Positions 725 through 11,849 of a stretch of 64,000 bases of DNA are shown here, one piece after another (positions within the stretch are counted from its first letter, which is position 1; each line of letters opens with the position of its first letter). The stretch spans positions 62,001 through 126,000 of the forward strand of contig JAUIDB010000004.1 in the NCBI GenBank assembly GCA_030429235.1, given 5' to 3'. A program made the translations under genes and the position numbers. This stretch comes from Thermoanaerobaculia bacterium. GTDB lineage: Bacteria > Acidobacteriota > Thermoanaerobaculia > Multivoradales > JAIOJS01. Under the pieces are notes generated by a model. That model worked only from the letters and a program-made list of their open reading frames with translations. It had not been told where the DNA came from and made no database searches.

Positions 725-3676
725 TCAGTCGAGCAGCCAGAGAAGATCCTCGGCTCCCATCTGCTGGACCAGCGTACCGTCCGCCTCCAGGATCGCTTCG
801 GCGAGGTCCCGCTTGGTGTCCTGCAGCATGAGGATCTTCTCTTCCACCGTTTCTTCCGCGATCAGCCGATACGCGAACACTGGCTGGTCCTGACCGATGC
901 GGTGGGCGCGATCGATCGCCTGCGCTTCGACCGCGGGGTTCCACCAGGGATCGAGCAGGTAGACGTAGCTCGCGGCGGTCAGGTTCAAACCGACCCCACC
1001 CGCCTTCAGACTGATGAGGAAGACGGGGCAGTCGGGATCGGTCTGGAAACGCTCGACCCGAGCTCCGCGGTCGCGGGTCTTGCCGTCGAGGTACTCGTAG
1101 ACGATCCCGGCTTCGCGCAGGCGGTCCTGCACGATGGCGAGAAGCGAGGTGAACTGGGAGAACACCAGGGCCTTGTGACCACTCTGCAGCACCTCTTCGA
1201 GTTGGCTTTGCAGCAGATCGACCTTGGTGCTCGGTTCCCCTCGTTTCGAGTCGTCGAGCAGGCCGGGGTGGCACGATGCCTGCCGAAGCCGCAGCAGCGC
1301 CTCGAGGACCTCGATCTTGGAGCGTTTCAGCCCGACCTCGTCGAACCTCTGCACGAGGCTCGAACGGTAGTGGGTCTTGAGCTCGTCGTAGACCGTGCGC
1401 TCGGCCTTCGACAGCTGACAGCGCAGGACCTGTTCGGTCTTGGCGGGAAGCTCCGACAGCACCTGCTCCTTGGTCCGACGAAGGATGAAGGGAGCGAGGG
1501 CTCGACGCAGTTCCGGTTTGCCGCCATCCCCTTCCTCGGCCGGGTCCACCAGCCCTTCGAGCCGCGGTACGCGCCCCAACATGCCGGGGTTGAGGAACTC
1601 GAAGATCGACCAGAGCTCTCCCAGGTGGTTCTCGATGGGGGTGCCGGTGAGGGCCAGGCGGTGGTCGGCCCGCAGCAGCCGGGTGGCGCGGGCGGTCTGG
1701 GAGCCGGCATTCTTGATCGCCTGGGCCTCGTCGAGGATCACGAAGCGGAAGCGGTGCTTGCGCAAGGTCGTGATGTCCCGGCGCAGAGTCCCGTAGGTAG
1801 TGATCAACAGGTCCGCATCCTCGAGTTCGGCCAGCTGCTTCTTGCGCTGGGCTCCGAGGTAGGTCCGCACCTCCAAGTCGGGCGCGAACCGAGCGGTTTC
1901 GTCGACCCAGTTGTAGATCAGACTGCGGGGGGCCACCACCAGGGCGAGGGGTCGGTCGCTCGCGGTCTGCGATTCCCCCTGGAGCAGGGCCAGCACCTGC
2001 ACCGTCTTGCCGAGGCCCATGTCGTCGGCCAGACAGCCGCCGAGGCCGAGGTCGCGGAGAAACTCGAGCCAACCCAGCCCCAAGCGCTGGTAGGGCCGCA
2101 GAGTGCCGACGAATCCAGGGGGTTCCTCTTGGGCCTCTACACTGCCGACACTGGCCAATCGACTGCGTAGCTGATCGAACTGCTGGTCCCGTTCGAAGTC
2201 GTTTTCCGACAGCAGGGCTTCGATCAGGAGTGCCTGCGAGGGCTGAAATCGCAGGCGGTCGGAGTCCTCGTCGGTGGCGAGATCGCGGAACCGATCGAGT
2301 TGCCGCACCCAGACCTCCGGCAGGATTCCGAGCGAGCCGTCATCGAGGACCAGAAACCGCTCCTTGCGCTCGAGCGCCTGGAGGATCTGCGGCATCGGCA
2401 CCACTCGACCCTCGAACTCGCCCCCGCCGTCGAGTTCGAACCAGTCGATCCCGGTGGTGATTCCGAACGACAGGCCGCCCGCTCGTCGGACCGGTTGATC
2501 CTCGGCTCGCAGCAACCAGCCCGCCGCCAGGAGCTCCTCGAGCACGGCGGCCACGCGTCGATTGGGGACCGTGTACGTCCCATTTTCCCGCCGACCGCGA
2601 CCGGGCTGGAAGCCGAGCTGGTCCAGGGAATCGAGCGCTTGCTGCTCGGCCATCGGATCGCGCAGCAGGAGTCGACGGCCCGCTCGGTCGAGAAGGGCTC
2701 GTCGCGTGTCTCCGGACTCGACTTCGATGCCGTCGTAGAGGAACGCAACCCGAGTCCGCGTACTGAAGGTACGTTGCGCCGGGGCCGCCAGGACGGTGAG
2801 GCGGGGGCGAGGGGGAAGCGAAATCTCGGGCAACCGCAGCTCTTCGGGCAGTTCCAGCTGGGGAAGTTCCGGGTGGCGCCAGAGTTCTTCCAGTGCCTCG
2901 GGGAGCTGAGGGTAGGGAATCTCGATCGGTCCCTCGGAACGCAGGATGACCGTCCACGAGAACAGGTTGCCGAGTTCGAGTCGAGCGATGCGATCCTCGA
3001 ACAGGACCAGACCGCTGGCCAGATTCAGCCGCGGCTCTTCGACGGGAACGGTTTCCTCGTCACGGACCAACTCGCCGTGGAGGGCCGCGTGGTCGGCACT
3101 CTCCGTGGCCTCGAGTCGGAGGCCGAGGGCGTAGGCCTCTCCCTCGTCCCACTGCAGCGGCGCCATAGGGTCGAGGTCATGGTCCCGCCCCAGGTTCCAG
3201 ATCAGCCGCTCCGTGGCACAGAGTCCCGGCAAGACGAGCGAGAAGAGCGCCGGCGCCAGGGCGCCGCGACGGATCCGGATGGTGGTCGAACTGCCCTCGG
3301 CCGAACGCACGGTGGTGGACTTCGCATCCACCGGCAGAGCCATGAGGACGGAGAGCAACTCGGCGTCCGCAGGATCGACGAGTGCCAGTCGATCCTCGTC
3401 CATCGACAGCGGCTTGAGGCGTCCCAGCTCGCCGCTCTTGTTCCGTTGGCGCTGCAGAAAATCGATCGTCAGGTCGCCGGTGCGCAGACTCTGCTCCAGA
3501 TTGATGGCGTAGAGGATGCGGGCCGGCGGCGTCCACCGACTGTCGACCGGTCGTCCGGGACCCAGGCCCAGCCGGCCCTCGATCGATCGACGAACGATGT
3601 CGAGTTGGTCGCGCCAGGCCTCCTCCTTGCGCGAGCTGTCGGTCAGGGAGGCGAGGGAAGAGGAGGGGTTCGGCAT
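725..3676 (-). CDS. SNF2-family DEAD/DEAH helicase without SWIM domain
   Basis: A 983-residue SNF2/Rad54-type ATPase expected to translocate on double-stranded DNA. The C-terminal half carries the motor: Walker A with DDMGLGKT near residues 547-556, the DEAQ box near 646, [13 protein letters not shown], and the second RecA lobe ending in motif VI ([11 protein letters not shown]) near 917. The N-terminal 500 residues are a variable bacterial SNF2 region. The frame stays open far upstream, but I chose the ATG at 3676 because a longer start would run across the divergent transporter gene. A second SNF2 gene at 40154-43672 is clearly paralogous and carries an N-terminal SWIM zinc finger that this copy lacks. 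Family assignment is firm; the biological target is unknown. Confidence 0.93.
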
Positions 3677-9167: not shown

Positions 9168-9821
9168 ATGGGATCGAAGCGACGGTACTATCCGGCCGAA
9201 GACATCACAGTGGAGTTCGAACCTGCGCTCTGCATCCACGCTGCCGAGTGCGCCAAGGGACTACCGCGGGTTTTTGATCCCCAGAGTCGACCGTGGGTCG
9301 ATCCCAGCGCGGCCCCTGCGGACGAGATCGCAAAGGTGGTGGCGCGCTGCCCTTCGGGAGCACTGCAGTATCGCCGGACGGACGGCGGCGCCGAAGAGGT
9401 GCCGGTGACCGAGAACCGCGTGCATGTGGCGAGCGACGGCCCTTTGCAGTGCGTGGGAGACCTCCGCATCGTCCTGCCGGACGGAAGCATTCGCCACGAG
9501 ACCCGGGCCACCCTCTGCCGCTGTGGTGCTTCGGCGAACAAGCCGTTCTGCGACAACTCGCACCGGGAGATGCCATTCGAGGACGCGGCGTTGGAGATGG
9601 AGGATCGGCTGCGCCAGGCCGAAGGGGAGGAGGAGGAGAGCGCCCTCACGATTCGACTCGCGGCCAACGGCCCTCTCCTGCTCCAAGGGCCTGCCCGCCT
9701 GACCTGTGGCGGCTCGAGCGTCAGCGAGGGCAGCAAAGGAGCCCTCTGTCGCTGCGGTGCTTCGGCCATGAAGCCTTACTGCGACGGTGCGCACAAGAGC
9801 AACGGCTTTCGAGCTGAGTGA
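9168..9821 (+). CDS. Iron-sulfur protein: Fer4_19-type domain plus two CDGSH domains
   Basis: A 217-residue soluble protein with three predicted cluster sites. Residues 1-75 form a divergent 4Fe-4S/Fer4_19 domain (CIHAAEC near 22, then CPSGAL near 62). Two CDGSH zinc-finger-type 2Fe-2S domains follow: LCRCGAS with FCDNSH near 115-130 and LCRCGAS with YCDGAHK near 192-210. Each has the 3Cys-1His ligand pattern of mitoNEET-type proteins, which hold redox-active, labile 2Fe-2S clusters. A spacer rich in Glu lies between the two CDGSH domains. The ATG has a strong GAGGAGGAG ribosome site. The next gene, a Crp/Fnr regulator, starts inside this one and overlaps it by 35 bases, which suggests linked expression. 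Confidence 0.93.
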   Translation: MGSKRRYYPAEDITVEFEPALCIHAAECAKGLPRVFDPQSRPWVDPSAAPADEIAKVVARCPSGALQYRRTDGGAEEVPVTENRVHVASDGPLQCVGDLRIVLPDGSIRHETRATLCRCGASANKPFCDNSHREMPFEDAALEMEDRLRQAEGEEEESALTIRLAANGPLLLQGPARLTCGGSSVSEGSKGALCRCGASAMKPYCDGAHKSNGFRAE

Positions 9822-10392
9822 GTTCGCCCCCGGCTCGATCCGAGGGGTCCGCCGCCGTCTCGCGAAGAACGAGTTCCTCTTCCTTCGCGACCAGGCCGCG
9901 GACTGGCTGTTTCAGGTCGAGAGCGGACGTCTCTGCCTAGAGAGGAGCCTCGACGATGGGGCGCTCGTGTGCCTGGCGGTGCTTCATCCCCAGGACCTGA
10001 TCGCCGAGGCCGCGCTCTTCTCCGAGCACTATCACTGTGATGCGCGGGCCGAGGTCCGCTCCACGGTCTGGGGGTTTTCGAAGCGTGAGGTCCTAGCCCA
10101 CCTGAAATCCGACTCGGAGACACTCCTGCAGTGGACGAAGAGACTCTCCGCACAGCTCCGGCGCTCGAGAGCACTCCTCGAAGTTCGCTCGATTCGCCGA
10201 GCCGACGACCGGATCCTGGCCTACCTCGATCTTCTGTCGGTGCTCGGAGAGACGTGGGACGGACGGCGGCCGAACAGCGCGGTGGCCACGGAGCTGGGAC
10301 TGACTCCGGAAGCTCTCTACCGGTCGCTGGCTCGACTCGAGCGCAGCCAGGCCGTTCGGCGGCAGGGCCGCACGGTGGCTCGCAATTCCTAA
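9787..10392 (+). CDS. Crp/Fnr-family transcriptional regulator
   Basis: A 201-residue regulator with an N-terminal cyclic-nucleotide-binding beta-barrel (GxxLFxxxQxA-like stretch, then GRLCLERSLDDGALVCLAVL) and a C-terminal helix-turn-helix around residues 165-190 (NSAVATELGLTPEALYRSLARLE). The Phe-Ser-Glu-His-Tyr-His-Cys segment near residue 80 replaces the cAMP phosphate cassette, and the Fnr N-terminal Cys cluster is absent, so the signal is probably neither cAMP nor a classic Fnr cluster. Three Cys residues remain in the sensor barrel. GTG at 9787 is the first in-frame start and gives a 35-base overlap with the CDGSH gene. Likely targets are this cluster, but I see no clear operator. Confidence 0.88.
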   Translation: MRTRATAFELSEFAPGSIRGVRRRLAKNEFLFLRDQAADWLFQVESGRLCLERSLDDGALVCLAVLHPQDLIAEAALFSEHYHCDARAEVRSTVWGFSKREVLAHLKSDSETLLQWTKRLSAQLRRSRALLEVRSIRRADDRILAYLDLLSVLGETWDGRRPNSAVATELGLTPEALYRSLARLERSQAVRRQGRTVARNS

Positions 10393-10486
10393 CCCGGATC
10401 ATGGAGGACTCCCGGAGGGGGTGAGAGGCTGGGCCGGTGGCGCCATCGCGCCTCATTCCTTCACTCTGACCCGAGAGGTATCAACC

Positions 10487-11122
10487 ATGCTCCGCCCTCC
10501 TGCCCTCGTTGGTTCGACCACGTTCTTTTCGGTCCTAGTCTTCCTGGCGGCGGGTCTCCTGGCCCTGCCCCTCTTCTCCCAGGAGCATGGCTCAGCCTCG
10601 CAACACGCCGAATGTCCCCTGGCAGCGACCGCCGCCACCGAACAGCCTCCGAATCCTCGATCGCTCCCCAGCGTGGTCGGACAGGATGCCTTCCAAGCAC
10701 TGGTAGAGATGCGGCGCCTGCTCGAAGAGGATCCGCAGACCGACTGGAGCCGAGTCGATCTCGGCGCCCTCCGCGACCATCTGGTCGACATGCACCACGT
10801 AGTCCTGTGGGCCGAGGTCGAGGAGACGACCATCGACGGAGGATTCGAAGCCGTGGTCACCGGCACGGGGAGGACGCTCGAGGCCATCGAACGTATGGTG
10901 CCAGCTCACTCTCGCTTCGCGGCCTCCGACTCGGTACGGGTCCACACCGAGGCGCTCCCCGCGGGTGACGCCCGCGGAACGGGCGTCGTGGTGCGCGTGA
11001 CGACGGCATCAGCCTCGGACGTGGTTCGTCTTCGCGCTCTGGGCTTCTTCGGCTTCCTGGTCGACGGGGACCACCACCGTCCCCATCATTGGGCCATGGC
11101 TGCGGGTGGTGGACACCCCTGA
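10487..11122 (+). CDS. Exported His-rich protein of unknown function
   Basis: A 211-residue protein with a signal peptide (residues 1-35, hydrophobic core LVFLAAGLLALPLF). The mature part has a conserved-looking block LRDHLVDMHHVVLWAEVE near 105-125, a VTGTGRTLEAIERMVPAH helix, and a C-terminal tail DGDHHRPHHW with further His. I do not recognise the family. The His density and export suggest metal or haem binding outside the cytoplasm, which is inference. The ATG at 10487 has GAGAGG upstream; an upstream GTG frame extension is less likely because it would bury the signal peptide. It follows the Crp/Fnr gene by 94 bases on the same strand. Confidence 0.75.
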   Translation: MLRPPALVGSTTFFSVLVFLAAGLLALPLFSQEHGSASQHAECPLAATAATEQPPNPRSLPSVVGQDAFQALVEMRRLLEEDPQTDWSRVDLGALRDHLVDMHHVVLWAEVEETTIDGGFEAVVTGTGRTLEAIERMVPAHSRFAASDSVRVHTEALPAGDARGTGVVVRVTTASASDVVRLRALGFFGFLVDGDHHRPHHWAMAAGGGHP

Positions 11123-11220: not shown

Positions 11221-11295
11221 TGGAGCCGATGATTGGATTTGAACCAACGACCTGCTGATTACGAATCAGCTGCTCTACCCCTGAGCTACATCGGC
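11221..11295 (-). tRNA. tRNA-Thr (anticodon CGU)
   Basis: The minus strand folds as a tRNA: 7-bp acceptor stem GCCGATG/CATCGGC, D arm, anticodon stem GCTGA/TCAGC with loop TTCGTAA (anticodon CGT at 11261-11263, reading ACG), and a T arm with GGTTCAAATCC. The discriminator is T and the CCA end is encoded at 11221-11223. No other tRNA is nearby. Confidence 0.95.
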
Positions 11296-11408: not shown

Positions 11409-11849
11409 GTGAGTACCACTCGGGCCCAGCGGACGATCGACGCCCCGGTAGAGCTCGTCTTTGCCACCGTTTCCGACATCCTGAACTTCTCCCAGGCGGT
11501 TCCTCACATCGTCGACGTCGAGTTCCTGTCGGAGCAGCAGAGTGGGGTAGGAACCCGGTTTCGCGAGACGCGTCTGATGGGCAAGCGCAAGGCTTCTTCG
11601 GTACTCGAGGTTACGGAGTGGTCGGAGAACGAATCGGTACGGTATGTCAGCGATCAAGGAGGGACGATCTGGGATACCGTCTTTCGGGTGCGAGACACCG
11701 GCGCAGGGACCGAACTCTCTCTGACCATGGAGGCGCGCGCCTACCGCTGGCTGGCGCGGTGTTTCAATCCCCTCATCCGGGGGATGGTGGCGAAGGCGAT
11801 CGAGAGCGACATGGATGCCATCAAGTCGTATTGCGAGGGTTCTCGCTAG
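11409..11849 (+). CDS. SRPBCC / polyketide-cyclase-like protein (START fold)
   Basis: A 146-residue helix-grip protein. The N-terminal strand QRTIDAPVELVFATVSDI, the central GVGTRFRE turn and the C-terminal amphipathic helix (NPLIRGMVAKAIESDMDAIK) fit the coenzyme Q-binding/polyketide cyclase group of the SRPBCC superfamily, which binds hydrophobic ligands in a central cavity. Start is GTG at 11409 with a good AAGGAGG site seven bases upstream. It stands alone between the tRNA and the convergent M13 peptidase gene. Ligand unknown. Confidence 0.85.
   Translation: MSTTRAQRTIDAPVELVFATVSDILNFSQAVPHIVDVEFLSEQQSGVGTRFRETRLMGKRKASSVLEVTEWSENESVRYVSDQGGTIWDTVFRVRDTGAGTELSLTMEARAYRWLARCFNPLIRGMVAKAIESDMDAIKSYCEGSR

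Follow-up and report, generated by a model that had tools for sequence, protein, structure and literature searches.

The window analysed here is a stretch of 64,000 nucleotides from a Thermoanaerobaculia bacterium, positions 62001-126000 of contig C6 of a 4.85 Mb assembly (G000), and our subject is three consecutive genes that encode a CDGSH protein, a Crp/Fnr-like regulator (Crp) and an exported protein (Table 1). Just 3' of the exported gene lies a tRNA-Thr gene on the opposite strand (11221-11295). The open reading frame of the exported protein begins mechanically at a GTG (10421), upstream of the start that we consider likely. A preliminary description of this DNA had proposed the three genes as a possible redox or metal-sensing unit. 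Our comparisons with other genomes indicate that the regulator and the exported protein form a real, apparently undescribed two-gene module, and that the CDGSH gene, judged by gene order, is a chance neighbour. To go by sequence and surroundings, the regulator is probably a Cu(I)-sensing activator with a single target, the gene of a periplasmic metal-binding protein.

Table 1. Features of the locus, in window coordinates
Feature	Position	Strand	Basis or remark
Type 7 (DCC) CDGSH protein, Fer4_19 and two CDGSH domains, 217 residues	9168..9821	+	Pfam; judged not part of the module
Crp/Fnr-like regulator, coding sequence, 201 residues, GTG start, overlaps the upstream CDGSH reading frame by 35 bases	9787..10392	+	Pfam; linkage
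YHCD codons, residues 82-85 of the regulator	10030..10041	+	Alignments with relatives and E. coli CRP
Degenerate putative operator CCTAACCCGGATCATGG, 11/13 to CCTGATN4ATCATGG	10388..10404	+	Position matches paralogous and relative loci
Putative weak -10 hexamer GAGGCT, centre 32 bp from operator centre	10425..10430	+	Class II geometry
Exported protein, coding sequence, 211 residues, likely ATG start, family without Pfam model	10487..11122	+	
C-terminal HHRPHH (His196, 197, 200, 201), nearly invariant in the exported family	11072..11089	+	

The module is best seen in its linkage elsewhere. When one genome of each GTDB species was scanned for relatives of the exported protein, 98 were confirmed, and the best 80 were kept as loci; most are from Alphaproteobacteria, some from Gammaproteobacteria and Acidobacteriota, and one is from a record named Blastopirellula. 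Four of them (L065, L066, L072, L078) are the same DNA as the G-handle loci L037, L038, L040 and L039, whose copies were not counted in the 80. A Crp homologue adjoins the exported gene in 70 of the 80 loci, divergently in 65 and co-directionally in 5, and because both orientations occur the linkage survives rearrangement. Among the ten loci without an adjacent Crp, the contig breaks off immediately upstream of the exported gene in L068 and L073, and at the downstream end of this gene in L072. An adjacent Crp was also present in all ten annotated plasmid loci examined, of 67 records found; the Crp reading frame of L150 is in two pieces. Within the order, the best Crp relatives adjoin the exported gene in three genomes (G022, G014, G031) and in a second pair of the window's own genome, and the GenBank titles of the relatives with the pair read Thermoanaerobaculia or Acidobacteriota. 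Pairwise distances among Crp homologues and among exported proteins are correlated (r = 0.66 over 42 pairs, reached in 0 of 2000 permutations, species relatedness not removed), which in our reading is shared inheritance of the two proteins, not separated from the relatedness of the species. One locus has an unusual version of the family (L040/L072, genome G020): in its exported protein a long Cys/His-rich repeat precedes the conserved domain; an operator-like site lies upstream, and no Crp was detected alongside.

The pair is accompanied by a palindrome, TATGATN4ATCATA, upstream of the exported gene. Within at most 450 bp upstream of the conserved part of this gene, it matches at 10 or more of its 12 positions in 68 of the 80 loci, at 11 or more in 55 and at all 12 in 31, the consensus having been read from the same 80 loci in which matches were then counted; control windows of these loci gave 21 of 1303 at the lowest threshold and none at the other two. 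The operator is present in 67 of the 70 loci with Crp versus 1 of the 10 without. Nine of the 12 loci that lack it have no adjacent Crp, and the other three (L065, L066, L078) are Acidobacteriota with the Thermoanaerobaculia variant, CCTGATN4(A/G)TCAT. It also lies between the two genes in the co-directional pairs L069, L070, L149 and L152, and for this reason we assign it to the exported gene. Perfect sites number 33 across 27 genomes that were selected for having one, with one or two in each genome, compared with 3 for the reversed control. The six extra sites include that of G100, which belongs to another copy of the pair, four that share no theme (L163, L168, L177, L187) and a sixth in G109:C29. 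Among the 80 loci, the only operator of at least 11/12 outside the pair region is a perfect site in L068 (1813-1828), upstream of a gene for a Met/His-rich multiheme cytochrome (Cytochrome_C554, 1889-3334).

At class II promoters of CRP and FNR, an activator site at -41.5 puts the centre of the -10 hexamer 32 bp away. We looked for -10 elements in 58 non-identical segments from the 68 loci with a site of at least 10/12. Scored as TATAAT with at least 5 of 6 letters, they had no preferred offset; the looser form TAnnnT, used afterwards, showed one peak only, on the side of the exported gene, with its centre 32 bp away from that of the operator: all three letters occur in 26 of the 58 segments, at least two in 49 and the A in second place in 53 (mean over offsets 0.66). 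Towards crp there was no comparable peak (best offset 7/58). To judge from this spacing, the promoters are laid out for class II activation by a Crp-type protein.

In the window itself, the palindrome was not found at 10/12 or better in the intergenic region. The candidate operator CCTAACCCGGATCATGG starts 2 nt before the Crp stop codon, exactly as do CCTGATTCGAATCATGG of the second pair in the same genome and the sites of G022 and G014. A hexamer of the form xAxxxT stands at class II distance in all five Thermoanaerobaculia pairs, the window version being GAGGCT, and the second pair probably has the stronger promoter of the two in this genome. We claim no regulon from the Thermoanaerobaculia variant, because matches with one mismatch are unspecific (10 sites in G000, 21 in G022, 16 in G014).

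The regulator is a member of the Crp/Fnr superfamily, with a cNMP_binding barrel and a C-terminal Crp-type helix-turn-helix (HTH). It matches the Pfam family PF00027 above cut-off (9e-15), with HTH models below theirs (HTH_Crp_2, 0.0062); its AlphaFold2 model (predicted local distance difference test, pLDDT, 89.9) has a barrel, a long helix and HTH-like helices, and a profile search of PDB found chains of DNR and CRP. In NCBIfam it scores 15.7 bits with the CRP model (cut-off 266) and 35.9 bits with its best match, FtrB (curated cut-off 211). The preliminary description had reported that it lacks both the Cys cluster of Fnr and a cAMP cassette, and alignment with E. coli CRP and FNR agrees: no Cys precedes residue 50, as the N-terminal [4Fe-4S] cluster of FNR would require, and Tyr82-His83-Cys84-Asp85 align with Q80-E81-R82-S83 of CRP, so that the phosphate-cassette residues Arg82-Ser83 are replaced by Cys84-Asp85. 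In CRP, R82 and S83 contact the cAMP phosphate. Of the Cys residues already noticed in the sensor barrel (50, 62 and 84), only Cys84 is conserved. Both His83 and Cys84 are present in 44 of 44 aligned sequences, a count conditional on a trimming rule that requires Cys after H, R or C. This alignment (A4) holds the window and 43 of the 57 sequences listed, after removal of 14 near-duplicates; four others were skipped for X residues or short length (L077, L085, L101, L111), and L086 was left out for missing the trimming motif, though its sequence has THCD. In the recognition helix, Glu175 and Arg179 are retained in all ten sequences aligned with CRP and FNR, in line with the TGA/TCA core of the putative operator.

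The exported protein was said to be of no known kind and to end in a His-rich tail, and this stands: the hydrophobic N-terminus and the HHRPHH motif are read directly, and no Pfam or NCBIfam family matches the window protein above cut-off. Among 56 members of the family, no Pfam model matched consistently (best count 2/56), and all 50 plasmid copies among the matches listed are annotated 'hypothetical protein'. The aligned family (A3: the window and 55 of the 69 sequences listed, 14 near-duplicates removed, L101 skipped for X residues) has eight conserved His columns and two Met columns. In window numbering, H98, H141 and H197 occur in 56/56 members, H200 and H201 in 55/56, H210 in 54/56, H196 in 53/56 and H40 in 46/56; M102 is found in 56/56 and M137 in 54/56. 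No PDB chain matched its profile. The AlphaFold2 model (pLDDT 88.9) runs alpha-alpha-beta-beta-alpha-beta-beta-alpha-alpha, and Foldseek found no solved fold for it at E<=0.001. The best result of VIA-align, RNA polymerase subunit L (Z 6.8, root-mean-square deviation 3.4, 87 residues aligned), is within chance range, and we do not trust the likeness to RNA polymerase L/K subunits at Z 6-7. The protein resembles the Metal_resist/LTXXQ families (PF13801, PF07813), to which we take ZraP, CnrX and Spy to belong, in being small, exported, His-rich and encoded beside what seem to be metal-stress regulators. It differs in having an alpha/beta rather than an all-helical model and in matching neither family, in the window protein or among the 25 of 34 Pfam matches listed for the 56 members.

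The surroundings of the pair in other genomes support the metal response that had been suggested from the window alone, and point to copper in particular. The reference proteins for this comparison were drawn from annotated plasmids. A strict copper set (multicopper oxidase, CopC, CopD, DUF411, P1B ATPase, HMA, CusF, DUF305, CsoR and the four-helix Cu protein) flanks the pair in 44 of the 80 loci, and any metal gene in 46. The commonest neighbours are multicopper oxidase (41/80), CopC (23/80) and CopD (23/80). Twelve control loci around CDGSH genes gave no gene of the strict set and one with any metal gene. These controls come from another phylum than most pairs and are partly shorter, which makes CopC the better control: it lies inside the fetched flanks in 16 of 36 loci, where uniform placement predicts about 0.1, the 36 genomes holding 28 copies in all and 23 of them being positive. 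Copper genes accompany the pair beyond Rhodobacterales, in Rhizobiaceae (L079, L100), Geminicoccaceae (L088) and Gammaproteobacteria (L083, L107), as well as on plasmids of Agrobacterium, Roseibium and Acuticoccus; none was found near the pair on a Ruegeria plasmid and on a Rhizobium ruizarguesonis plasmid. Near-identical pair loci in different genera of the Roseobacter group (L117-L121, L140-L144) suggest that the copper islands have spread horizontally in recent times.

The second pair of the window's own genome (G000:C16 155000-165500, L162) ends a copper cluster, with a copper P-type ATPase above the TIGR01511 cut-off, an outer-membrane factor (OEP), an adaptor with a heavy-metal-binding domain and a CusA/CzcA pump, closer to CusA (1e-275) than to ZneA (1e-120), followed by a kinase, a sigma-54 response regulator, Crp and the exported gene. 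In G010:C52 (L057 2050-2661), a Crp homologue with YRC and a similar operator, CCTGACGCGGATCATTG, precede a Metal_resist (PF13801)/LTXXQ protein; to go by its genes, the usual partner is here replaced by another metal-stress periplasmic protein.

We propose that the regulator would bind as a dimer at -41.5 and activate, as a class II activator, essentially one promoter per genome. Its signal would be a surplus of metal in the cytoplasm, with Cu(I) the likeliest, detected by His83-Cys84 in what was once the cyclic-nucleotide pocket, and the induced protein would go to the periplasm and there bind or buffer metal by means of H98, H141, H196/197, H200/201, H210, M102 and M137. The parts of this scheme differ in strength. 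That the regulator acts on the exported gene is very probable; that the module responds to metal is likely; copper as this metal has the better part of the probability, at somewhat lower confidence; and direct binding of the metal at the His-Cys pair is possible, at a little below even chances. The window would hold a weaker second copy of the pair found in the genome's copper-efflux cluster, a reading that we base on its degenerate operator and on the lack of metal genes alongside.

Several observations weigh against this scheme. Thirty-six of the 80 loci have no strict copper gene in the fetched flanks (some are short contigs), and no metal genes lie beside the window copy in the first 20 kb of the window. 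Rhodobacterales are over-represented among the 80 loci, which also contain the near-identical segments mentioned above. The G010 Crp homologue has Arg-Cys where others have His-Cys. The left half of the window operator has decayed, and it is one of seven matches to the variant with two mismatches in the window, with 0.75 expected; hence the sequence alone is weak and we argue this site from its position. Finally, a genome of the same genus, G001, has neither the Crp nor the exported gene at E<=0.001, and on this ground we regard the pair as accessory. Of the flanking genes sought in G001 for an empty site, the major facilitator superfamily gene lies at a contig end and the M13 peptidase gene has different neighbours. 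Between the tRNA-Thr and M13 peptidase genes, the window also holds an SRPBCC/polyketide-cyclase-like gene (11409-11849), absent from the two G001 contigs examined.

The initial proposal differs from ours in placing the CDGSH protein in the same operon. Its observations on this protein were accurate: Pfam recognises two stretches of zf-CDGSH (1.2e-27) as well as a Fer4_19 domain (1.9e-24), each exceeding its cut-off, and the regulator gene starts inside the CDGSH gene. Type 7 CDGSH proteins of subtype DCC have a Fer4_19/DUF1271 domain followed by two CDGSH domains, and the window protein is of this subtype, with an identical architecture and no visible difference (Lin et al. 2011, PMC3174974). 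The overlap of the two reading frames could locally couple their translation, a point in favour of a single redox or metal operon of three genes. Yet no homologue of the CDGSH protein occurs in the 97 pair loci (G-handle copies among them), neither this Crp subfamily nor the exported protein occurs in the 12 CDGSH loci from relatives (one match, in L046, is a 505-residue protein of another kind), and the genes around the CDGSH gene vary between these loci. Of the 58 other genomes of the order, 10 have near full-length matches to the CDGSH protein, and in G022 and G031 it coexists with the exported gene on different contigs. Conservation of gene order, the check proposed at the outset, thus holds at the junction of Crp and the exported gene and fails at that of the CDGSH gene and Crp. 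We consider a three-gene operon very improbable and reject it as the unit, which also corrects the view that labile CDGSH clusters provide the input to the regulator.

The other alternatives keep the two-gene module and change its signal or its sign. The invariant Cys of the sensor barrel would also suit a thiol-reactive or redox signal (an oxidant, an electrophile or the glutathione state) sensed via Cys84, with the exported protein answering oxidative damage to the envelope. There is precedent in the superfamily, since FixK2 and PrfA are reported to be under the control of Cys oxidation or glutathione (PMC12937710). However, the aligned sequences keep His83 as strictly as Cys84, and the eight His columns of the exported protein and its copper neighbours fit metal better; we regard a redox signal as unlikely. 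About as unlikely, or slightly more so, is that some other metal (Zn, Ag, Hg, Ni) or a different small ligand induces the module and that copper neighbours merely reflect multi-metal islands. Some islands with the pair do hold genes for MerA, CDF and ArsR/SmtB, and the replacement of the partner by a Metal_resist protein in G010 points the same way, but the neighbours are dominated by multicopper oxidase, CopC and CopD, and Cys-Asp stands in place of Arg82-Ser83, the residues with which CRP contacts cAMP. It is less probable still that the regulator is a repressor released by its signal. Divergent loci place the site upstream of crp too, where autorepression would be possible, yet only on the exported side does the -10 element stand at exactly 32 bp from the centre of the operator, as expected of the activator that we propose.

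We advance with more reserve the broader claim that this is a new branch of Crp/Fnr regulators sensing copper directly, with a Cu(I) site at His83-Cys84, one class II promoter per genome and a new periplasmic family of His-rich copper-binding proteins, spread with copper islands across Acidobacteriota, Alphaproteobacteria and Gammaproteobacteria; it seems to us more doubtful than the module itself. We know of no Crp/Fnr regulator established as a dedicated sensor of copper or another metal ion. In open-access papers no such module was found, but 'Crp/Fnr' is unsearchable as written and the absence is only suggestive; a paper on marine copper signalling (PMC10141476) has zero occurrences of Fnr or Crp. 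The module supplies a named operator, a testable residue pair and an uncharacterised family of apparently periplasmic proteins, which occurs in well-studied genera (Ruegeria, Phaeobacter, Dinoroseobacter, Agrobacterium, Sulfitobacter).

With CRP and FNR of E. coli the regulator shares the cyclic-nucleotide barrel, the dimer helix and the C-terminal HTH with its conserved Glu and Arg, and the module shares an operator with a TGA-N6-TCA core at class II spacing. It differs from them in Cys-Asp replacing R82-S83, in lacking the FNR Cys cluster, in low identity (19% to CRP, 18% to FNR) and in an operator, TATGATN4ATCATA, that occurs as one or two perfect sites per genome rather than in a global regulon. 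RedB, a Crp/Fnr regulator of R. capsulatus, was also considered and set aside as a parallel, since it has 115 chromatin immunoprecipitation peaks and a non-palindromic site (PMC9603854), unlike the regulator described here. In its local control of copper-handling genes, the putative module would resemble the bacterial copper sensors CueR, CsoR, CusRS and CopY, from which it would differ in its protein family, as none of these is known to belong to the Crp/Fnr superfamily.

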